Made by a program: the position numbers and the translations under genes
Part shown: positions 20,238-28,293 of the stretch, piece after piece
Layout of the letters: every line of letters starts with the position of its first letter
Position numbering within the stretch: the stretch's first letter is position 1
Assembly (NCBI GenBank): GCA_023819375.1
Contig: JAMWDI010000005.1
Location: forward strand, 1 to 64,000
DNA from: Candidatus Omnitrophota bacterium
Lineage (GTDB): Bacteria > Ratteibacteria > UBA8468 > B48-G9 > JAFGKM01
Direction: 5' to 3'
DNA: 64,000 bases
Notes under the pieces: model-generated
The model's database searches: none
Told to the model about the DNA's origin: nothing
The model's input: only the letters and a program-made list of their open reading frames with translations

Positions 20238-23200
20238 TTATTCGTAAAGTATTGTGGCATGTTCATATATTTTATTAGAGATTTTATCAATAATTTCATA
20301 CTCAACATTTTCCTCAACTATACTCCTTAAAATTTCTTTTACTTCCATCTTAATTTTTGCTCTTAATGTTTCTTTTTTGTTCCAATCAACTATTTTAGTG
20401 TAATAACCCAATCTTTTTACAATTTCTCTTGCAATCTCTATAATAACTTTTTCATTTATAAAGATATCTTTTTCATTTGAAAGTATATCATAAAATGCAA
20501 GTTCCTCTTCAGTTAAATTTAATTTTTCTCCTTCTGCAATGATTTTTTTAATTTCTTTTGCAATCTGTATCAATTCTTCAATAACTTCAGCGGTATCCAA
20601 AATTTTAAAATTGTATTTTTCTATTAATCTTTTGAGTTTATTGTATAGTGATTTGTATCTTAAAGGATTCTTTCTTATTTTTACCTTAAGTTCACCTTCT
20701 AAAAGTTTTCTAAGTAAATCAATCGCATAATTTTTATACTCTATATTTTTAAACTGTAAAAGGAATTCTTCATCAAGTATTGAAATATCAGGTTTTTCTT
20801 TTTGAAGAAGAGAAAATATATCTACAGGTTCTTCGGCTGATATACTTTTTGAAATCAATTGATTTATTTCGTACTCAATGTCCCTTGATATTTCCGGTCT
20901 TGGTGCTGAATACTTTACAATCATTTTTTTAATCATTTCAAAGAATCTTATATCATCCTTAATTTTGATTGTTTCAGGATGAGGGCTTGTAAGAGCATAA
21001 ATTTTCTTTAAAACAACAAAATTTTTTATAAAATTCTTCTTTTTCTCTTCAGTATCCAATAAATTATATGCTGAAACTGTTAATTGGGAAAGTTCTTCTG
21101 GTTTCAATATTTTCCAGTTTTTATAGTCAATACCATAAAACATTGAGGAGACAATATCGTATTTTTCTTTTAGTAAATTTATAACCTTTTCTATGTCAGT
21201 TAAAACTTTTTCAATAGTTTCAACTGTATATCTACTTAATGACTTTCTTAAATCATCAGCGATACCTATATAATCAACAATAAGACCTCCTGGCTTATCT
21301 TTAAAAACCCTGTTTACTCTTGCTATTGCTTGAATCAAGTTGTGGTCTTTCATCGGTTTATCAAAATACATTGTATGAAGGCAAGGAATATCAAAACCAG
21401 TCAAAAGCATATCAACTACTATTACCATTTTTGGGTCTTTATCTGGATTTTTGAATTTGTTAAGGACTTCCTCCATTTCATATTTATTTCTAATATGGGG
21501 ATGAAATTCCTTAGGATCTCTTTGCTTATTACCGGACATTACAATTTCAATAGAAGGGGCATCTGGAATCTTTTGAATTGCATTATAAAGTTCTACAGCA
21601 ACCTTCCTTGAAATAACAACGATCATACCTTTTCCTTCGAGTTCTTGAGTCCTTTTGTTAAAATGCTCTACTATATCTTTTGCTATCTTTTCTATTCTTT
21701 CGGGATTTAAAATCAATCTTTCAAGTGTTGCATATTTTCTTTTTAAATATTCCTTTTCTTCCTCTTCAAGAGATTCTGAGATTTCTTCAAATTCTTCATC
21801 AATAAATTCATTTGTGAGATGTAATTTCACAAGTCTTGCCTCATAATAAATGGGAACAATCACTTTATGTCTTAATGCTTTATCCATTGAATAAATACTT
21901 ATTGGCTCGCCAAATACAAGATATGTGTCTCGGTCAGCAAGTTCAATAGGTGTTGCTGTAAATCCCATAAAAGATGCATTTGGAATTGCATTTCTTAAAT
22001 TTTGAGCAAGTTCTCTATACTGGCTTCTGTGCGCCTCATCTGCTATCACAATTATATTTTTCCTATCTGTTAAAAATGGGTATTCCTCCACATTTCTTTT
22101 TCCAAATTTCTGGATTGTGGCAAAAATTATTCCTCCTGCTGTTTTTATAATAATTTCCTGTAAATCCTTTATACTTTCTGCCTGCTTTACAATCGGCATT
22201 TGAGAAAAAAGACTATAAAGTTGTTCATCAAGATTTTTTCTGTCAGTGATAAATAAAAGCAAGGGATTTTCAAGTTCTTTTACCTTTAAAGTTTTTCTTG
22301 CATAAAATAACATTGTAAGAGATTTTCCAGAACCCTGAGTATGCCAGATAACGCCTATCCTCCTTTCTTCAGGATTTTTCCCTTCTAATATACACTTTTT
22401 GGTTCTTTCAACCGCTTTTTTAACCGAATAAAACTGATGAAATATAGCAATCTTTTTCTCATAATTTTCTCCAATTTTTTCATAAAAAATAAAATCGTTG
22501 ATATAATCAATAATATGTTCTTTTCTGAAAAGCCCTTTTATTAAAACCTCAAGAGATGTTATTTCTTTTTCATTATAAAAATAGCGATTGAAACCTTCTG
22601 CAATTTCCTCTACTTTTAAATCATCATCACTTGAAATACCTTCCCAGATAAAAAATCTTTCCCAATCGCTTGTAGGTGAACCATATCTTGTTTCATACCC
22701 ATCTGAAGCAACAAGAATCTGAGAATATATATAAAGTTGTGGAATATTTTTCATCTTTATTTTATGGTCATTATACGCATCCTTTGCTGTTTCATTTGTA
22801 TTAAAATTTTTAAATTCAAAAATTGCAATTGGAAGACCATTTATAAAAACGACAAGGTCTGGTTTCCTATACCAATCTTTTTCATATTGATACTCAACTT
22901 TAAACTGGTTTGCGATAAGGAAATCGTTATTTTCTGGATTTTCAAAATCTATTAATTTAACAATTCTTGTTTTCTCTTCCTTTTCTTCTTTAAATGTAAT
23001 TCTTACTCCGTTTGTTAAAAGTTCATAAAAGATTTTACCTTTCATTATAAAATCAGGATGGTCAAGATCTTTAACTTTCTTATAAACTTCTTCTGATTTT
23101 CTATCATCAAGCCAAGGATTAATCTTTTTGATTGCTGATAAGAATCTTTTCTTTAAAATAACATCTCTATAGGATTCCCTTTCTTCATTATCTGGAATTA

Positions 23201-23294
23201 AATCTGAGCCATGAATATAACTATAGCCAATCTCCTTAAACCACTCTATAGCCGGCTGTTCAACCATATAATCTTCAGTAAGTTGTGCTCTCAT
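20238..23294 (-). CDS. hsdR: Type I restriction enzyme, R subunit
   Basis: 1018 residues, full length. The PD-(D/E)xK nuclease shows PDLVVF (D146) and AIFEFKN (E160, K162). The SF2 motor has Walker A QGSGKS (320-325), DEAH (419-422) and GFTATP (444-449), followed by the second RecA domain (VVDMLLTGFDIPCLHTMYFDKP and QAIARVNR). The protein translocates DNA and cleaves unmethylated targets in complex with HsdM and HsdS. It is the last gene of the operon, overlapping the DCD-AAA+ gene as ATGA. The catalytic residues are intact, so restriction is probably active. Confidence 0.96.
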   Translation of the reverse strand: MRAQLTEDYMVEQPAIEWFKEIGYSYIHGSDLIPDNEERESYRDVILKKRFLSAIKKINPWLDDRKSEEVYKKVKDLDHPDFIMKGKIFYELLTNGVRITFKEEKEEKTRIVKLIDFENPENNDFLIANQFKVEYQYEKDWYRKPDLVVFINGLPIAIFEFKNFNTNETAKDAYNDHKIKMKNIPQLYIYSQILVASDGYETRYGSPTSDWERFFIWEGISSDDDLKVEEIAEGFNRYFYNEKEITSLEVLIKGLFRKEHIIDYINDFIFYEKIGENYEKKIAIFHQFYSVKKAVERTKKCILEGKNPEERRIGVIWHTQGSGKSLTMLFYARKTLKVKELENPLLLFITDRKNLDEQLYSLFSQMPIVKQAESIKDLQEIIIKTAGGIIFATIQKFGKRNVEEYPFLTDRKNIIVIADEAHRSQYRELAQNLRNAIPNASFMGFTATPIELADRDTYLVFGEPISIYSMDKALRHKVIVPIYYEARLVKLHLTNEFIDEEFEEISESLEEEEKEYLKRKYATLERLILNPERIEKIAKDIVEHFNKRTQELEGKGMIVVISRKVAVELYNAIQKIPDAPSIEIVMSGNKQRDPKEFHPHIRNKYEMEEVLNKFKNPDKDPKMVIVVDMLLTGFDIPCLHTMYFDKPMKDHNLIQAIARVNRVFKDKPGGLIVDYIGIADDLRKSLSRYTVETIEKVLTDIEKVINLLKEKYDIVSSMFYGIDYKNWKILKPEELSQLTVSAYNLLDTEEKKKNFIKNFVVLKKIYALTSPHPETIKIKDDIRFFEMIKKMIVKYSAPRPEISRDIEYEINQLISKSISAEEPVDIFSLLQKEKPDISILDEEFLLQFKNIEYKNYAIDLLRKLLEGELKVKIRKNPLRYKSLYNKLKRLIEKYNFKILDTAEVIEELIQIAKEIKKIIAEGEKLNLTEEELAFYDILSNEKDIFINEKVIIEIAREIVKRLGYYTKIVDWNKKETLRAKIKMEVKEILRSIVEENVEYEIIDKISNKIYEHATILYE

Positions 23295-24565
23295 AATCGT
23301 CCCAATAAATTACGATTACGTGCCCACTCTTCGTATCTTTGAATTTCTTCATCACCAACTGATTTTGGAATTCTGTTAATAGCGTCAAGTATGAATTCCT
23401 TTTTTATTATGTCTTTTTTTTCAAAAGCTTTAAAACTAGCTTCATCAACTATATTTTCAATATCTGCCCCAGAATATCCTTCTAATTTTTTAGCGATTTC
23501 CTTAATATCTTCATCTCTAAGGTTATGTTTTCTATCTTTAAGTTGGAGTTTTAAAATTTCAATTCGTGCTTGCTCATTTGGCAATCTAACGTAAAAAACT
23601 CTATCAAATCTCCCTGGACGAAGAAAAGCAGGGTCTATAAGTTCTGGTTTATTGGTTGCAGCAATAACAATAATAGGTTTTGTTCTCTCTTTAAAAATTT
23701 TGCCCAATAGTGACAAAAGAAGAGGTTTAAGTCGTGTCATTATAGTTGATCCCTCACCTGTTCTTTCACTGAGTATCCATTCTGCTTCGTCGAGGAATAA
23801 GACTGCTCTTGGCTCTTTCTTTAAGTCATCAAAAATTTTTTCTAATCTTTTTTCCGCCTCACCGGGGTATCCTGCAATTACAGATGGACTAATTTCTATA
23901 AATTTTGCTTCTATACTTTTTGCAATAGCTTGTGAAATTAGCGTTTTTCCTGTTCCTGGAGGACCAACAAGTAATATTCCGCCTCCGATTTTAAGTTTTA
24001 GTCTATAGGCACGTTCTTCATCTTCAAAAGGTGCAATTATTCTCTGATAAACAAATTGCTTTATTTCATCTAAACCTGCTACATTAGCCAATGAAAATTC
24101 CGACGAAGCGGAAGTTGCTTTAAGTTCTTGCAATTCTGATTCAAAATTAGTAGGTATTATAAAAAGTGATAGAACCTTATTAGTAATGTCTGGACCATAC
24201 GTTTTCATTTTAGTAACAAAATATGAAAAAGCCCCTCTATCTACTTTTTTCAACTCAAGAAAGTCCTTCAGTTTTTGTGAAGCATTGCTTATTCTCTGTA
24301 ATTCACCGATGAGTTCAACTTTTATCTGGGCAGGAAATTCGCCTCCCCAAGCTTCAGGTTCTATATTGAGCGCAGCTTCACTTTTTGCGATAAATATACC
24401 GAGAAGTTCATCTTTAGAAACATTTAATAAAAATCCAATATCTCCAATTTTTATTGTTTTTAGATATGGTAAGGCCCACTCACGTTCACCAAATAAATTT
24501 CTTGTAAGACATTCTTCTTCTGTTGAATTGGTACATAACATAAAAAAACAAGATTTCTCTATCAT
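23291..24565 (-). CDS. DCD-like domain fused to classical AAA+ ATPase
   Basis: 424 residues. Residues 5-135 resemble the DCD (development and cell death) domain of the PUA/EVE-like superfamily: FFMLCTNSTEEECLTRNLFG, LLGIFIAKSEAALNIEPEAW and FPAQIKVEL align with the plant-type pattern of an N-terminal cysteine/EC, LFG, LxGIFxA and FPAQV. Residues 160-400 are a classical AAA module: Walker A GPPGTGKT (201-208), Walker B VLFLDE (255-260), sensor N304, arginine fingers in FLRPGRFDR (R316, R319) and YSGADIE. All ATPase residues are present. GGAGGTGA before the ATG is a strong ribosome binding site. It lies between hsdS and hsdR, overlapping hsdR. Its role is unknown; recognition of modified nucleic acid or remodelling of the restriction complex are possibilities. 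Confidence 0.85.
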   Translation of the reverse strand: MIEKSCFFMLCTNSTEEECLTRNLFGEREWALPYLKTIKIGDIGFLLNVSKDELLGIFIAKSEAALNIEPEAWGGEFPAQIKVELIGELQRISNASQKLKDFLELKKVDRGAFSYFVTKMKTYGPDITNKVLSLFIIPTNFESELQELKATSASSEFSLANVAGLDEIKQFVYQRIIAPFEDEERAYRLKLKIGGGILLVGPPGTGKTLISQAIAKSIEAKFIEISPSVIAGYPGEAEKRLEKIFDDLKKEPRAVLFLDEAEWILSERTGEGSTIMTRLKPLLLSLLGKIFKERTKPIIVIAATNKPELIDPAFLRPGRFDRVFYVRLPNEQARIEILKLQLKDRKHNLRDEDIKEIAKKLEGYSGADIENIVDEASFKAFEKKDIIKKEFILDAINRIPKSVGDEEIQRYEEWARNRNLLGRL

Positions 24566-24795
24566 GTTACTTCACCTCCATTTCGGAAATTTGTAAAACA
24601 TTCATTCACTCTCATAATAACATCTCCTATAATTTTGTCCATAATGGTAGCCGCACCCTTCAGGTGCGTTATGTCCTGCAGGCTAAAGCATGTTGCTACC
24701 AAAAATATTAAATCCAAAATATTAAACAGGTAGCCGCAACCTTTAGATTGCGCAAATACCAATATTTTTAAAATATTATTTCCATCCTTCTTCAT
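24562..24795 (-). CDS. Small ORF of the RM operon carrying palindromic repeat DNA
   Basis: 77 codons. It overlaps the hsdS stop as ATGA at its start and the DCD-AAA+ start as ATGA at its end, as its neighbours do, and has GGAGG 4 bases before the ATG. Much of its middle (24646-24760) is repeat DNA. The last 26 codons (from MDKIIGDV) contain no repeat. It could be a small gene invaded in frame by the repeat, a remnant of a longer gene, or a chance frame. I recognise no family. Confidence 0.3.
   Translation of the reverse strand: MKKDGNNILKILVFAQSKGCGYLFNILDLIFLVATCFSLQDITHLKGAATIMDKIIGDVIMRVNECFTNFRNGGEVT
24646..24700. repeat. Palindromic interspersed repeat, unit 1
   Basis: 55 bases bounded by GGTAGCCGCA and TGTTGCTACC, which are near-inverted (8 of 10). 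Inside are two hairpins: a perfect CGCACC/GGTGCG stem, and a decayed one, GCAGGCTAAAGCATGTTGC. It is GC-rich compared with its surroundings and resembles REP/MITE-like palindromic elements. Confidence 0.8.
24729..24760. repeat. Palindromic interspersed repeat, partial unit 2
   Basis: 32 bases in the same orientation as unit 1, beginning GGTAGCCGCAACCTTTAG and forming the imperfect hairpin CGCAACC/GATTGCG, ending ATACC. It looks like a decayed half-unit separated from unit 1 by 28 AT-rich bases. Confidence 0.7.
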
Positions 24796-26045
24796 ACCTC
24801 CTCCACCCTTAATTTTCCAAAAACAAGTAAAGGCAAAAGTTTATCCCTGATTTTTCTTAAAAGCATAATTTGTTTTTGATTAAAAATGATTTTTTGAAAT
24901 AATGGTTCAACAAGGGAATGGAATTTTTGGAGGATGGGAGGAGGGGGAAGAACTATTATTTTATTTTGCATAAACAATCTTACATTGAGATGTAAAACAT
25001 TTACACCATTAGCAAAAGTAGAATTTTCTTCTTGTGTTTGTTTTAAATGTAAATATAGATATAATTTAAGATACTCATAATTGGGCTGCAATTTCATACA
25101 ATCTAAAGATATAATACCAAAATCATATTCTTCTGGTAAAAAAACAAATGCTGGAGCACCAACAACCTTTGCTTCATAAGTTATATCAGTGAGTGCTATA
25201 ATTAAATCCCCTTCTTTTACTTTATGTTGCTCTTTCGCTCTATTTCCAATATAATAAATGTATTCTGTTTTAAAACCACCTCCACGAATAAAATTATTTA
25301 AGGTAATAAAAATATCTCCTTGTGGTTCTGAACAAGTATCGGGTGAATTATAAGATACACCTTTAAATCCTATTGTAATTTCACCTAATCTCTTCACTTC
25401 CCACCCCTTAGGTATCTTTCCTAACTCACTATCAACAAATTCGCCATCTTTAAATGGTTCAAAGTCAATGAACCAGTTTTTGAATATTGCCATTGCTGTT
25501 TTTTCCAAAATTTCATTCTGCCTTTTCTTGTTTTCTATCAAATCATCAAAATAGGATAAAACAGTCGCAATGCGATTTTGTTCAGGAAGGGGTGGATATG
25601 GGATAGAGATCGCTAAAAGATAATCTTTATCAACATGCCTATCATCTGTACCTGACTTGGCATCTTTTAGTTTATCCTCATTTAATTTTAATCCAAAGTA
25701 GAGAAAATTCTTCTCAATATTTTTTTCAAAAACAAATTTACACATTGTAGAAGCAAGTAACCCTTTTTCCCCCTTAAAAATTTCACCAGCATTTGAACCA
25801 TCCCATAAAATTATAATATCACTTTTATCCGCAAGTATTCCTGCATTCTCCTCATAATATCCTTCAGGCTCTTCTTCACCTCTTAAATATTTTGCTGATA
25901 AATATGGGACATTTCCATATATTTTCCGAGGAGTTCTACCCTTGATAATATCTATTACTAAAGTCCTTAATTCTCTAACTTCCCAATCCCTCGGTATCTC
26001 TCCAATTTCTGTTTCCTTAAATTCGGTTTCCCAGTGGAATTTCAT
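24792..26045 (-). CDS. hsdS: Type I restriction enzyme, specificity subunit
   Basis: 417 residues with the two-repeat layout of HsdS. Each half begins with a target recognition domain introduced by IGEIPRDWEVRELRTLV (near 13) and LGKIPKGWEVKRLGEIT (near 208). Each ends in a conserved helical spacer, PPLPEQNRIATVLSYFDDLI (near 156) and PPILQKFHSLVEPLFQKI (near 374). The two domains differ, so the target is probably bipartite and asymmetric. It shares an ATGA junction with the HEPN gene. Confidence 0.95.
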   Translation of the reverse strand: MKFHWETEFKETEIGEIPRDWEVRELRTLVIDIIKGRTPRKIYGNVPYLSAKYLRGEEEPEGYYEENAGILADKSDIIILWDGSNAGEIFKGEKGLLASTMCKFVFEKNIEKNFLYFGLKLNEDKLKDAKSGTDDRHVDKDYLLAISIPYPPLPEQNRIATVLSYFDDLIENKKRQNEILEKTAMAIFKNWFIDFEPFKDGEFVDSELGKIPKGWEVKRLGEITIGFKGVSYNSPDTCSEPQGDIFITLNNFIRGGGFKTEYIYYIGNRAKEQHKVKEGDLIIALTDITYEAKVVGAPAFVFLPEEYDFGIISLDCMKLQPNYEYLKLYLYLHLKQTQEENSTFANGVNVLHLNVRLFMQNKIIVLPPPPILQKFHSLVEPLFQKIIFNQKQIMLLRKIRDKLLPLLVFGKLRVEEV

Positions 26046-26452
26046 TTTAAATCTCTTTCACTTATTTTTAACTTTTTAAAAATAAATTCTTTTACTTTTT
26101 GTGCTGATTCAAATGCCTTTTTTGCTTCCTCAATTGTTGGTATATAAAATTCATCAGGATATCTTACATCTATTGCATAATCGGTTAAATTTGCTGTTAT
26201 ATCGTAGAGAAATTCAAATTCTTTATCTATCTTTTCACAAAGTTTAATCAAATACTCAATACTATGAACTCTTCCAAATTCTACACTTGAAGCAACAAGA
26301 AAAGCCTTCAAAAATTTCTCAACAGCCTGCTGGCAATGAAAACATAAAGTATCTGTAACTATCTCTTCTTCAGGTAAATTTATTAAAATTTCAGCAGTTT
26401 TTAAATCATTTAATCCCTTTGTTAACCATTTTTTAATTTCTTCTTCTATCAT
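26042..26452 (-). CDS. HEPN-domain protein
   Basis: 136 residues, all helical. The core HCQQAVEKFLKAFL (39-52), VHSIEYLIKLC and the late VRYPDEFY (96-103) match the PF05168-type HEPN domain. The usual Rx4-6H ribonuclease motif is not present, since the only nearby pair is R61-V-H63. It may be a non-catalytic or diverged HEPN. It is paired with a minimal nucleotidyltransferase immediately upstream (ATGA overlap), the classical HEPN/MNT arrangement often behaving as toxin and antitoxin. Its position inside a restriction operon is unusual. Confidence 0.9.
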   Translation of the reverse strand: MIEEEIKKWLTKGLNDLKTAEILINLPEEEIVTDTLCFHCQQAVEKFLKAFLVASSVEFGRVHSIEYLIKLCEKIDKEFEFLYDITANLTDYAIDVRYPDEFYIPTIEEAKKAFESAQKVKEFIFKKLKISERDLK

Positions 26453-26766
26453 AAAATAATCCCTTCTCCAATCGCACTTCTTATAACACTACCAATTACA
26501 CCTTTCCTTTTTTCAAACTCCTCTTCTGACTTAATTAGAACATCACAGGGTATAAATTCATCGGCAAGTGCCTTTCTTATAAGATGGGAAATTTTTAACC
26601 TTTCTTCTCTTAAAAGTTTCTTATTAATTACAATAAGTAAATCCCAGTCGCTTCTTTCCTTATAATCTCCCCTTGCTCGTGAACCAAAGAGAATAATCTT
26701 CAAAACCTTAATTTTATTCTCTTCACATATTCTATTCACAATTTTTTTAATTATTTCTTCTGTCAT
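26449..26766 (-). CDS. Minimal nucleotidyltransferase (MNT)
   Basis: 105 residues. The polymerase-beta-like signature LFGSRARGDYKERSDWDLL (27-44) supplies the GS motif and metal-binding D40 and D42; the third carboxylate is D75 in PCDVLIKS. All catalytic residues are present. MNT proteins of HEPN/MNT pairs can AMPylate or otherwise modify the HEPN partner. It starts 3 bases downstream of hsdM and overlaps the HEPN gene, so it is translated with the RM genes. Confidence 0.92.
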   Translation of the reverse strand: MTEEIIKKIVNRICEENKIKVLKIILFGSRARGDYKERSDWDLLIVINKKLLREERLKISHLIRKALADEFIPCDVLIKSEEEFEKRKGVIGSVIRSAIGEGIIL

Positions 26767-26769
26767 TTT

Positions 26770-28293
26770 TCATATCTCCCATCCTAATGCTTTAAAAACT
26801 TCTTTAATCTTTTCTTTAAGTTTTTCTTCTTCCTCTAAAAGTTTGGAAAGTTCTTCTGAATAGTTTTTCATTGCTTCTTCAAAAGGAATATCCTCTTCCT
26901 CAAGTTTAACACCCACATACCTACCAGGAGTTAAAACATAGCCATTTTTTGCAACTTCTTCTAAACTGGCAACCTTTGAAAATCCAACTTCGTTTATCTT
27001 TTCTTCATTTTCTCCTTTTTCAAACATCCTGAATTTTTCAACAATCTTTTTTATATGTTCTTCTACAAAAATATTTTGTCTCCTTGATATTGGTTTAAAT
27101 AATTTTTTAGCATAGATAAAAAGAATTTTCCCTCTCATATGTTCTGGCTTTGATTTCCTCAAAAACCATAAGGAAGCAGGAAGAGAAACAGTGTAAAACA
27201 TCTTTGGTGGAGTTGCTATTATTCCATAAACAAGGTCATCTTCAATTATCTTTTTTCTTATTTCTCCTTCAATCCCTCCCACAGATAAAGCTCCGTTTGC
27301 CATAACAAAACCTGCTTTTCCATTAGGTGCAAGATGATAAATATAATGTTGTATCCATACATAATTTGCATTGTTTTCTGGCGGAAGGCCATATTTAAAT
27401 CTTGGATCATTTTCTTTTATTCTATCTCTTCCCCAGCCACTATCATTAAAAGGTGGATTTGAGACAACATATTCTGCTCTTAAATCAAAAAATTTATCAT
27501 CATGATAAGAATCACCCCATCTTATATCTCCTTCTGTACCTCTTATTACCAAATTCATCTTGCACATTTTCCAGACAAATTCCTTTGATTCCTGTCCATA
27601 AATTGATAATCTTTCTTTCTCAATTTCTTCTTTTTCAAGTTTTTCTAAGGCAGATACAAAAAATCCTCCAGAACCGCAGGCAGGGTCAAAAATTCTACCT
27701 TCTTTTACATCAAGGATTTCTACAATAAGTTTTGTTAATGAACGAGGAGTATAAAACTCACCACCTTTTCTTCCTTCTGCTTCAGTGAATTTACCAAGGA
27801 AATACTCATAAATTCTTCCAAAGATGTCTTTGCCAAAGTGATCATCATCAAATTCAATTTCAGAGAAAAGATTTATGAGATAAGATAAATCATAAGGATC
27901 AAGATTTACTTTTGAATAAATTTTTGGAATAATGTCTTTTAGTTGCCTTGGATATTCTTCTTCAAGAATTTCTATTGCTTTGTCTATTATTTCTCCAATA
28001 TTTGGTTGATTGGCGTTTTTCTTTATATATTCCCATCTTGCCTTTTCAGGGACATAAAGAGTGCCATTTGCAAGATAAACGTCTTTATCTTCACAAATTT
28101 TCTCTATGAATTTCTCAGATGAAGATTTTTCTTTTAAAATTTTTATCTTTTTTTCTTCAAAGGCAAATGATAAATACTTTAAAAATATAAGTCCTAAAAC
28201 AACATACTTATACTCGTGAACCTCGATCTTTTTTCTTAACTTATCAGCTCCCTTCCAAAGTTTATCTTCAAAATCTAATTCTTTTCCCTTCAT
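26770..28293 (-). CDS. hsdM: Type I restriction enzyme, N6-adenine methyltransferase subunit
   Basis: 507 residues. An N-terminal helical domain (KLWKGADKLRKKIEVHEYKYVVLGLIFLKYLS-type start) precedes the methyltransferase: the GGEFYTPRSLTKLIVE pocket (178-193), motif I DPACGSGGFF (203-212) and motif IV NPPF (279-282). It methylates adenine in the HsdS-defined target. It is the first RM gene and begins only 4 bases after the aminotransferase gene, so no separate promoter is evident. Confidence 0.96.
   Translation of the reverse strand: MKGKELDFEDKLWKGADKLRKKIEVHEYKYVVLGLIFLKYLSFAFEEKKIKILKEKSSSEKFIEKICEDKDVYLANGTLYVPEKARWEYIKKNANQPNIGEIIDKAIEILEEEYPRQLKDIIPKIYSKVNLDPYDLSYLINLFSEIEFDDDHFGKDIFGRIYEYFLGKFTEAEGRKGGEFYTPRSLTKLIVEILDVKEGRIFDPACGSGGFFVSALEKLEKEEIEKERLSIYGQESKEFVWKMCKMNLVIRGTEGDIRWGDSYHDDKFFDLRAEYVVSNPPFNDSGWGRDRIKENDPRFKYGLPPENNANYVWIQHYIYHLAPNGKAGFVMANGALSVGGIEGEIRKKIIEDDLVYGIIATPPKMFYTVSLPASLWFLRKSKPEHMRGKILFIYAKKLFKPISRRQNIFVEEHIKKIVEKFRMFEKGENEEKINEVGFSKVASLEEVAKNGYVLTPGRYVGVKLEEEDIPFEEAMKNYSEELSKLLEEEEKLKEKIKEVFKALGWEI

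Follow-up and report, generated by a model that had tools for sequence, protein, structure and literature searches.

Gene content of the operon

The stretch of DNA analysed here (the window) comprises 64,000 nucleotides of contig JAMWDI010000005.1 from a Candidatus Omnitrophota bacterium. Positions 20238-28293 of its minus strand carry a type I restriction-modification (RM) operon in which additional genes are embedded, in the confirmed order hsdM-MNT-HEPN-hsdS-(77-residue frame)-DCD-AAA+-hsdR. All six named genes are open, full length and clearly matched by Pfam families. The frames, listed in the direction of transcription, are as follows:

26770-28293, minus strand: hsdM, type I DNA methyltransferase subunit, 507 residues (Pfam N6_Mtase 1e-107, HsdM_N 4e-24)
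26449-26766, minus strand: MNT, minimal nucleotidyltransferase, 105 residues (Pfam NTP_transf_2 4e-13; PADLOC PDC-S09 7e-15)
26042-26452, minus strand: HEPN, PF05168 (HEPN-T) subclass, 136 residues (Pfam HEPN 2e-25; match to PDB 1ufb)
24792-26045, minus strand: hsdS, specificity subunit with two target-recognition domains, 417 residues (Pfam Methylase_S 2e-27, two stretches)
24562-24795, minus strand: open frame of 77 residues without a Pfam match, probably no gene
23291-24565, minus strand: DCD-AAA+, 424 residues (Pfam Dev_Cell_Death 5e-17 and AAA 1e-31)
20238-23294, minus strand: hsdR, restriction/translocase subunit, 1018 residues (Pfam HSDR_N 7e-47, SWI2_SNF2 2e-74, T1RH-like_C 1e-85)

Pfam and PADLOC matches and the open frames agree that hsdM, hsdS and hsdR are present together and intact, as the first-pass annotation of this DNA had described. 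The FDPACGSGGF and NPPF motifs are present in hsdM, and hsdR matches the PADLOC REase_I model at 3e-248. Judging from these sequences, the type I system is ordinary and probably working. The same annotation counted seven frames, mostly joined by ATGA overlaps. Five such overlaps are real (MNT/HEPN, HEPN/hsdS, hsdS/77-residue frame, 77-residue frame/DCD-AAA+ and DCD-AAA+/hsdR), and hsdM and MNT are separated by 3 bases. The number of genes probably falls to six, the 77-residue frame being a likely spacer. Promoter-like and terminator-like sites inside the operon do not exceed the level expected by chance.

Two identifications with named systems were rejected. IetA is the best PADLOC match of DCD-AAA+ (6e-34), and an IetAS identity was discarded because no protease (IetS, subtilisin-like) is found among the operon genes. 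The locus is also not EcoprrI/PrrC, since its hsdS-hsdR gap holds DCD-AAA+ and not an ABC-ATPase/HEPN anticodon nuclease.

Empty sites and related operons

The operon is preceded by lon and a class V aminotransferase gene, just upstream of hsdM, and a cation-efflux gene follows hsdR on the downstream side. Four sister species from this genus (G001-G004) have the aminotransferase gene directly next to the cation-efflux gene, without any RM genes in between; the two are spaced by about 8 bases or overlap, depending on the start codon chosen. The contig of a fifth genome (G005) stops at this very point. Because the site is empty in the four sister species, the operon of approximately 8 kb is most simply an insertion that was acquired as one block in this species.

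The closest operon is found in a genome of the same order but another family (G021). It has the composition hsdM-MNT-HEPN-hsdS-hsdR and carries no DCD-AAA+ gene, and a search with PF10539 detected no DCD domain in this genome. Its products are 88% (HsdM), 67% (MNT), 68% (HEPN) and 81% (HsdR) identical to their window counterparts. The first four genes occupy one contig end, and a second contig starts inside hsdS and leads through a 4-base ATGA overlap into hsdR. The two hsdS/hsdR junctions were compared directly, as an alignment of the whole junction is misleading owing to its long gap. The junction reads ...GGAAAATTAAGGGTGGAGAAGATATGA-hsdR in G021 and ...GGAAAATTAAGGGTGGAGGAGGTATGA-spacer-DCD-AAA+-ATGA-hsdR in the window. 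This comparison places an insert of approximately 1.5 kb, consisting of a 226-bp spacer and the DCD-AAA+ gene, exactly at the hsdS/hsdR border, where G021 has an uninterrupted ATGA overlap.

The insertion also changed the sequence in front of hsdR. The window copy lacks the Shine-Dalgarno-like GGAGAAGA of G021 and is preceded instead by codons of DCD-AAA+, so that translation of hsdR is probably coupled to that of DCD-AAA+. The G+C content of this gene is slightly higher than that of hsdR (33.6% vs 28.8%); codon use and G+C content together are not decisive.

The 77-residue frame consists of the old hsdS/hsdR ATGA and the 226-bp stretch. The ATGA at its start is, as read from the two junctions, a relic of the ancestral hsdS/hsdR overlap. 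The stretch itself carries two 'AAGG(G)TTGCGGCTACC' units that resemble repetitive extragenic palindromes and end in TGCGGCTACC, and its G+C content is 35% vs 29% for the window. No second copy of the spacer occurs in its own genome, and a search for one of the units in 98 related genomes did not find it. The sole place where a very similar unit turned up is contig L144, from another lineage. A repeat family belonging to this genome or its relatives was rejected as the source, as no further copy was found there and none in viral contigs. The frame is probably a foreign spacer that was brought in with or beside the DCD-AAA+ gene.

The next closest operon (G112, outside this class; 80% identity for HsdM and 71% for HsdR) is a plain hsdM-hsdS-hsdR arrangement without an insert. 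About 0.5 kb upstream of its hsdM there is a HEPN-MNT pair belonging to the same families (L105:3736-4902). This pair is accompanied by a frame of 132 residues without a Pfam match, so the same partners occur in a different place. A species of the window's own genus (G002) carries MNT-HEPN-MNT-HEPN-hsdS with no hsdM in front (L153:149-3086), which looks like what is left of a related type I operon.

The reading favoured here, with moderate confidence, is that a type I RM operon of the ordinary kind, probably functional, was acquired and that it harbors two embedded modules, MNT-HEPN and DCD-AAA+, which were acquired separately. The locus is a clean example of type I operons gathering embedded defense genes, with empty sites available at two levels, that of the whole operon and that of the DCD-AAA+ insert.

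The two embedded modules

The MNT protein retains the catalytic residues, with GS...SDxD and a third aspartate conserved in an alignment of 16 sequences. Its HEPN partner lacks the canonical Rx4-6H motif: in an alignment of 25 sequences, R97 is kept and no histidine occurs at the expected spacing, and two other conserved histidines (39 and 63) are retained. Like the type VII toxin-antitoxin system HepT/MntA, the pair combines an MNT protein bearing GS...DxD residues with an adjacent HEPN gene. However, the HEPN protein does not belong to the HepT family (DUF86, PF01934) with Rx4-6H and matches PF05168 instead. Its sequence agrees with HEPN-T, a class with a proposed alternative active site (PMC3710099), and a toxin role is plausible. 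Among the best HEPN matches from 340 genomes, 28 loci were inspected. Most have an MNT gene next door, and hsd genes lie within 1.5 kb only at G021 and G002. A second MNT-like/HEPN pair is present in the genome under study, between housekeeping genes of contig C13 (L118:6495-7241). The best solved match of the MNT protein is a chain named Cmr1-MntA (PDB 9z7q), which points to an MNT domain that elsewhere forms a fusion with a type III CRISPR subunit.

The DCD-AAA+ protein has an N-terminal DCD domain (approximately residues 1-140) followed by a single Cdc48-D2-like AAA module (approximately 155-420). The DCD domain matches PF10539 with 62.2 bits, vs a curated cut-off of 27.8. An AlphaFold2 model of the isolated domain has a predicted local distance difference test (pLDDT) score of 94.5; the full-length model carries more uncertainty (pLDDT 81, predicted template modelling score 0.60). 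The best fold matches of the domain are PH1033 (Z 13.8, 120 residues aligned) and MJECL36 (Z 12.8), which we take to be EVE-type proteins. These are followed by YTH readers, such as YTHDC2 with N6-methyladenine (m6A) DNA (Z 12.2, 125 residues aligned), and the modification-dependent endonuclease VcaM4I is among the Foldseek matches. The match to the EVE/YTH-like fold of the PUA superfamily extends over the whole domain. Sequence-profile comparison with solved EVE and YTH structures yielded no match apart from one that is weak and unrelated, and the link rests on the fold. The DCD part is thus predicted from its model to adopt the EVE/YTH modified-base-reader fold. W73, within an AWxG motif, is invariant in the family and may be the equivalent of a tryptophan of the YTH base cage.

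The AAA part matches a VCP-like ATPase profile at 2e-108, finds p97/Cdc48 with Foldseek, is closest to the D2 module of VCP/Cdc48 and carries AAA_lid_3 (Pfam). In an alignment of nine family members, GPPGTGKT (Walker A), DEAEW (Walker B), RPGRF and GYPGEAE show almost no variation or none, and GYPGEAE lies at the pore-loop-1 position with its aromatic tyrosine. The Walker motifs, arginine fingers, aromatic pore loop and C-terminal lid of Cdc48/p97-type proteins are therefore all present, but the Cdc48 N-domain is replaced by DCD and there is one AAA module where Cdc48 has two. As modelled, the protein would look like a protein-threading ring with a nucleic-acid-reader cap.

These features, together with the position of the gene, bring to mind a safety device. 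The DCD-AAA+ ring might act on HsdR or on stalled R2M2S translocation complexes and take them off self DNA whose sites are unmodified or wrongly modified. The gene directly precedes hsdR, overlapping it by ATGA, and its AAA module belongs to the Cdc48-D2 unfoldase type and has an aromatic pore loop that is invariant in the family. There is also an established precedent in the restriction alleviation of EcoKI by ClpXP, in which an AAA+ unfoldase could act on HsdR (PMC4231737). ClpX differs in being a housekeeping unfoldase that works with a protease, and no protease is encoded in this operon. Against such a device, the host has clpP and lon of its own nearby, no other member of the DCD-AAA+ family resides near HsdR, and the 81%-identical HsdR of G021 manages without an adjoining DCD-AAA+ gene. 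This role is fairly unlikely.

The DCD-AAA+ family is very rare yet widely scattered. A scan of 84,980 species genomes with the family alignment recovered eight other full-length members, which share 48-62% identity with the protein described here; as the scan relied on a pair of short peptide patterns, divergent members may be missed. The hosts belong to Kryptonia, Omnitrophota, Planctomycetota, Bacteroidales, Lokiarchaeota and unclassified bacteria. Searches with PF10539 in 386 and then 336 genomes revealed no further DCD-AAA+ protein, and returned two DCD-methylase fusions and one match below threshold. The fusions are at L054:8295-9497 (G020) and L055:8408-9829 (G295), and the latter is situated inside an apparent mur/fts cell-division cluster. 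No relatives were confirmed in viral contigs, and no full-length match was found in plasmids and phages, where matches are mostly to FtsH/Cdc48-type AAA modules. ATPases of haloarchaeal plasmids cover up to 80% of the protein at approximately 30% identity.

None of the eight relatives lies beside type I genes. On one long contig, a relative ends a type III-like RM cluster of an N6_N4 methylase (N6_N4_Mtase) and a ResIII helicase. In G245 (L057:9813-19901), the gene immediately precedes a type III-B CRISPR cluster (RAMP, Cmr1, Cas10/Cmr2), with a 65-residue frame between them. Another comes after ParA/replication-like frames, a further one after a transposase remnant, and yet another has a DUF4365 gene at a distance of 1.8 kb; some adjoin no recognized defense gene.

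The ParA-like and transposase neighbors would suit a different account, in which the passengers play no defense role here and are cargo, selfish or neutral, that profits from having landed in a gap that is transcribed and tolerant. Insertion exactly between two genes with preservation of the coupling is also what such cargo might achieve. Nevertheless, DCD-AAA+ has intact catalytic motifs that do not vary within the family, and other defense clusters stand beside the gene on two long contigs, and we judge the cargo account distinctly unlikely.

DCD-AAA+ is most likely an autonomous, modified-DNA-reading remodeller. Within the favoured reading, HsdM2S would methylate host DNA and HsdR would cut unmethylated DNA. 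MNT-HEPN would serve as a back-up of the toxin-antitoxin type, in which HEPN is likely restrained by MNT, by analogy to PrrC and HepT/MntA, and might act upon perturbation of the cell or of the RM complex. DCD-AAA+ would be an autonomous, mobile, defense-associated factor. Its DCD domain may bind a modified base in nucleic acid, whereupon the Cdc48-like ring would thread and dismantle protein bound there, and phages that evade the type I enzyme through their modified DNA could thereby be covered. The embedded genes would share operon expression and need not belong to the R-M-S complex.

A bolder proposal is tentative, and we regard it as possible but doubtful. DCD-AAA+ may by itself constitute a new antiviral factor encoded by a single gene, in which a YTH/EVE-like domain that reads modified DNA or RNA of phages is joined to a Cdc48-like ring for stripping or unfolding the proteins at that site. 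Such a factor would have spread horizontally among bacteria and Asgard archaea and landed by type I RM, type III RM and type III CRISPR genes. If both the reader and motor functions are true, this protein would represent an unusual use of modified-base reading, in which proteins are unfolded and DNA is not cut.

Several observations weigh against the favoured reading. The operon ends of G021 lie on separate contigs, and their joint inside hsdS is inferred. A number of DCD-AAA+ relatives are on short contigs, with some contexts cut off. The HEPN protein lacks the usual RNase motif, a predicted reader fold is no proof of base binding, and the ATGA coupling between DCD-AAA+ and hsdR could mean functional coupling. 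The roles given to all of the extra genes are predictions.

Embedded genes and known systems

Type I operons usually carry extra genes. Ten of 12 other type I loci with readable hsdM and hsdS contain at least one extra gene in the M-S or S-R gap. The embedded families include RhuM-Fic, NTase substrate-binding protein, ORF6N, AAA_13, DUF1016/YhcG, AAA_15, Abi_C, DUF3644 and Mrr, and one hsdM locus without a readable hsdS carries an extra frame of 316 residues with MNT and HepT. Insertion into the hsdS-hsdR gap has been described (PMC12255303, PMC11411939), and this gap has been termed a potential recombination hotspot (PMC12255303).

Against this background, the seven frames might still act jointly as one integrated defense system, with DCD-AAA+ as reader and remodeller and MNT-HEPN as a killer switch. 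They form a single, tightly spaced operon and every component is of a defense type. However, this composition turned up a single time, one or both modules are missing from the nearest operons, and the DCD-AAA+ family and MNT-HEPN pairs are mostly located elsewhere. The empty sites had already weakened the idea, which is highly improbable.

The first-pass annotation had put forward this exact composition as its best candidate for a new defense system and had suggested that the extra proteins work with the R/M/S complex, for example as a safety switch, a modified-base reader or a remodeller. The reader and remodeller ideas agree with the modelled reader fold and the Cdc48-type AAA sequence. A new system of fixed composition is unsupported, since the set occurred a single time and each module has its own distribution. 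The full set is absent from all eight other DCD-AAA+ loci and all 14 other hsdM loci, the family usually occurs in other contexts, and the closest operon with the same start (G021) lacks DCD-AAA+. Recurrence of hsdM-MNT-HEPN-hsdS in unrelated taxa did not materialize: it is intact only in G021, with an hsdM-less fragment in G002, both from the same bacterial order. Parts of the set have precedents, as the hsdS-hsdR insertion site and MNT-HEPN with RM operons (PMC3710099) are published. Embedding extra defense genes is a known habit of type I operons, and no new fixed system needs to be invoked.

The two modules compare differently with their published families. HEPN-T (PF05168) proteins paired with MNT are on record as clustering with RM operons, and the pair described here, of the same family and pairing, has no essential difference from them (PMC3710099). 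Prokaryotic DCD/EVE proteins of restriction systems share the EVE-like fold and occur with type I RM and other defense genes. The fusions named in the portion of that work consulted involve methyltransferases, PD-(D/E)xK nucleases and McrB-like proteins, and a Cdc48-type AAA fusion is not found in that portion (PMC7641849).

Three published cases of such embedding come with experimental tests. In EcoprrI/PrrC, a type I operon also harbors a latent killer, which provides a second line of defense (PMC3874165), but PrrC is a single ABC-ATPase/HEPN anticodon nuclease, whereas MNT and HEPN are separate here and the HEPN protein lacks the canonical catalytic motif. In the RptR-RMS-DarTG2 island of enteropathogenic E. 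coli, a toxin-antitoxin (DarTG2) or an ATPase gene occupies the gap from hsdS to hsdR (PMC12255303). Its toxin is different, and the operon described here has the toxin-antitoxin-like pair in the hsdM-hsdS gap and DCD-AAA+ as the ATPase. TgvAB of Vibrio cholerae VPI-2, located within the type I RM operon there, is likewise a case of extra genes inside such an operon; these genes act on their own, target modified phage DNA and complement the type I enzyme (PMC11411939). TgvAB is a GmrSD-like type IV nuclease pair, whereas the operon described here combines a DCD-AAA+ protein without a nuclease domain with an MNT-HEPN pair.

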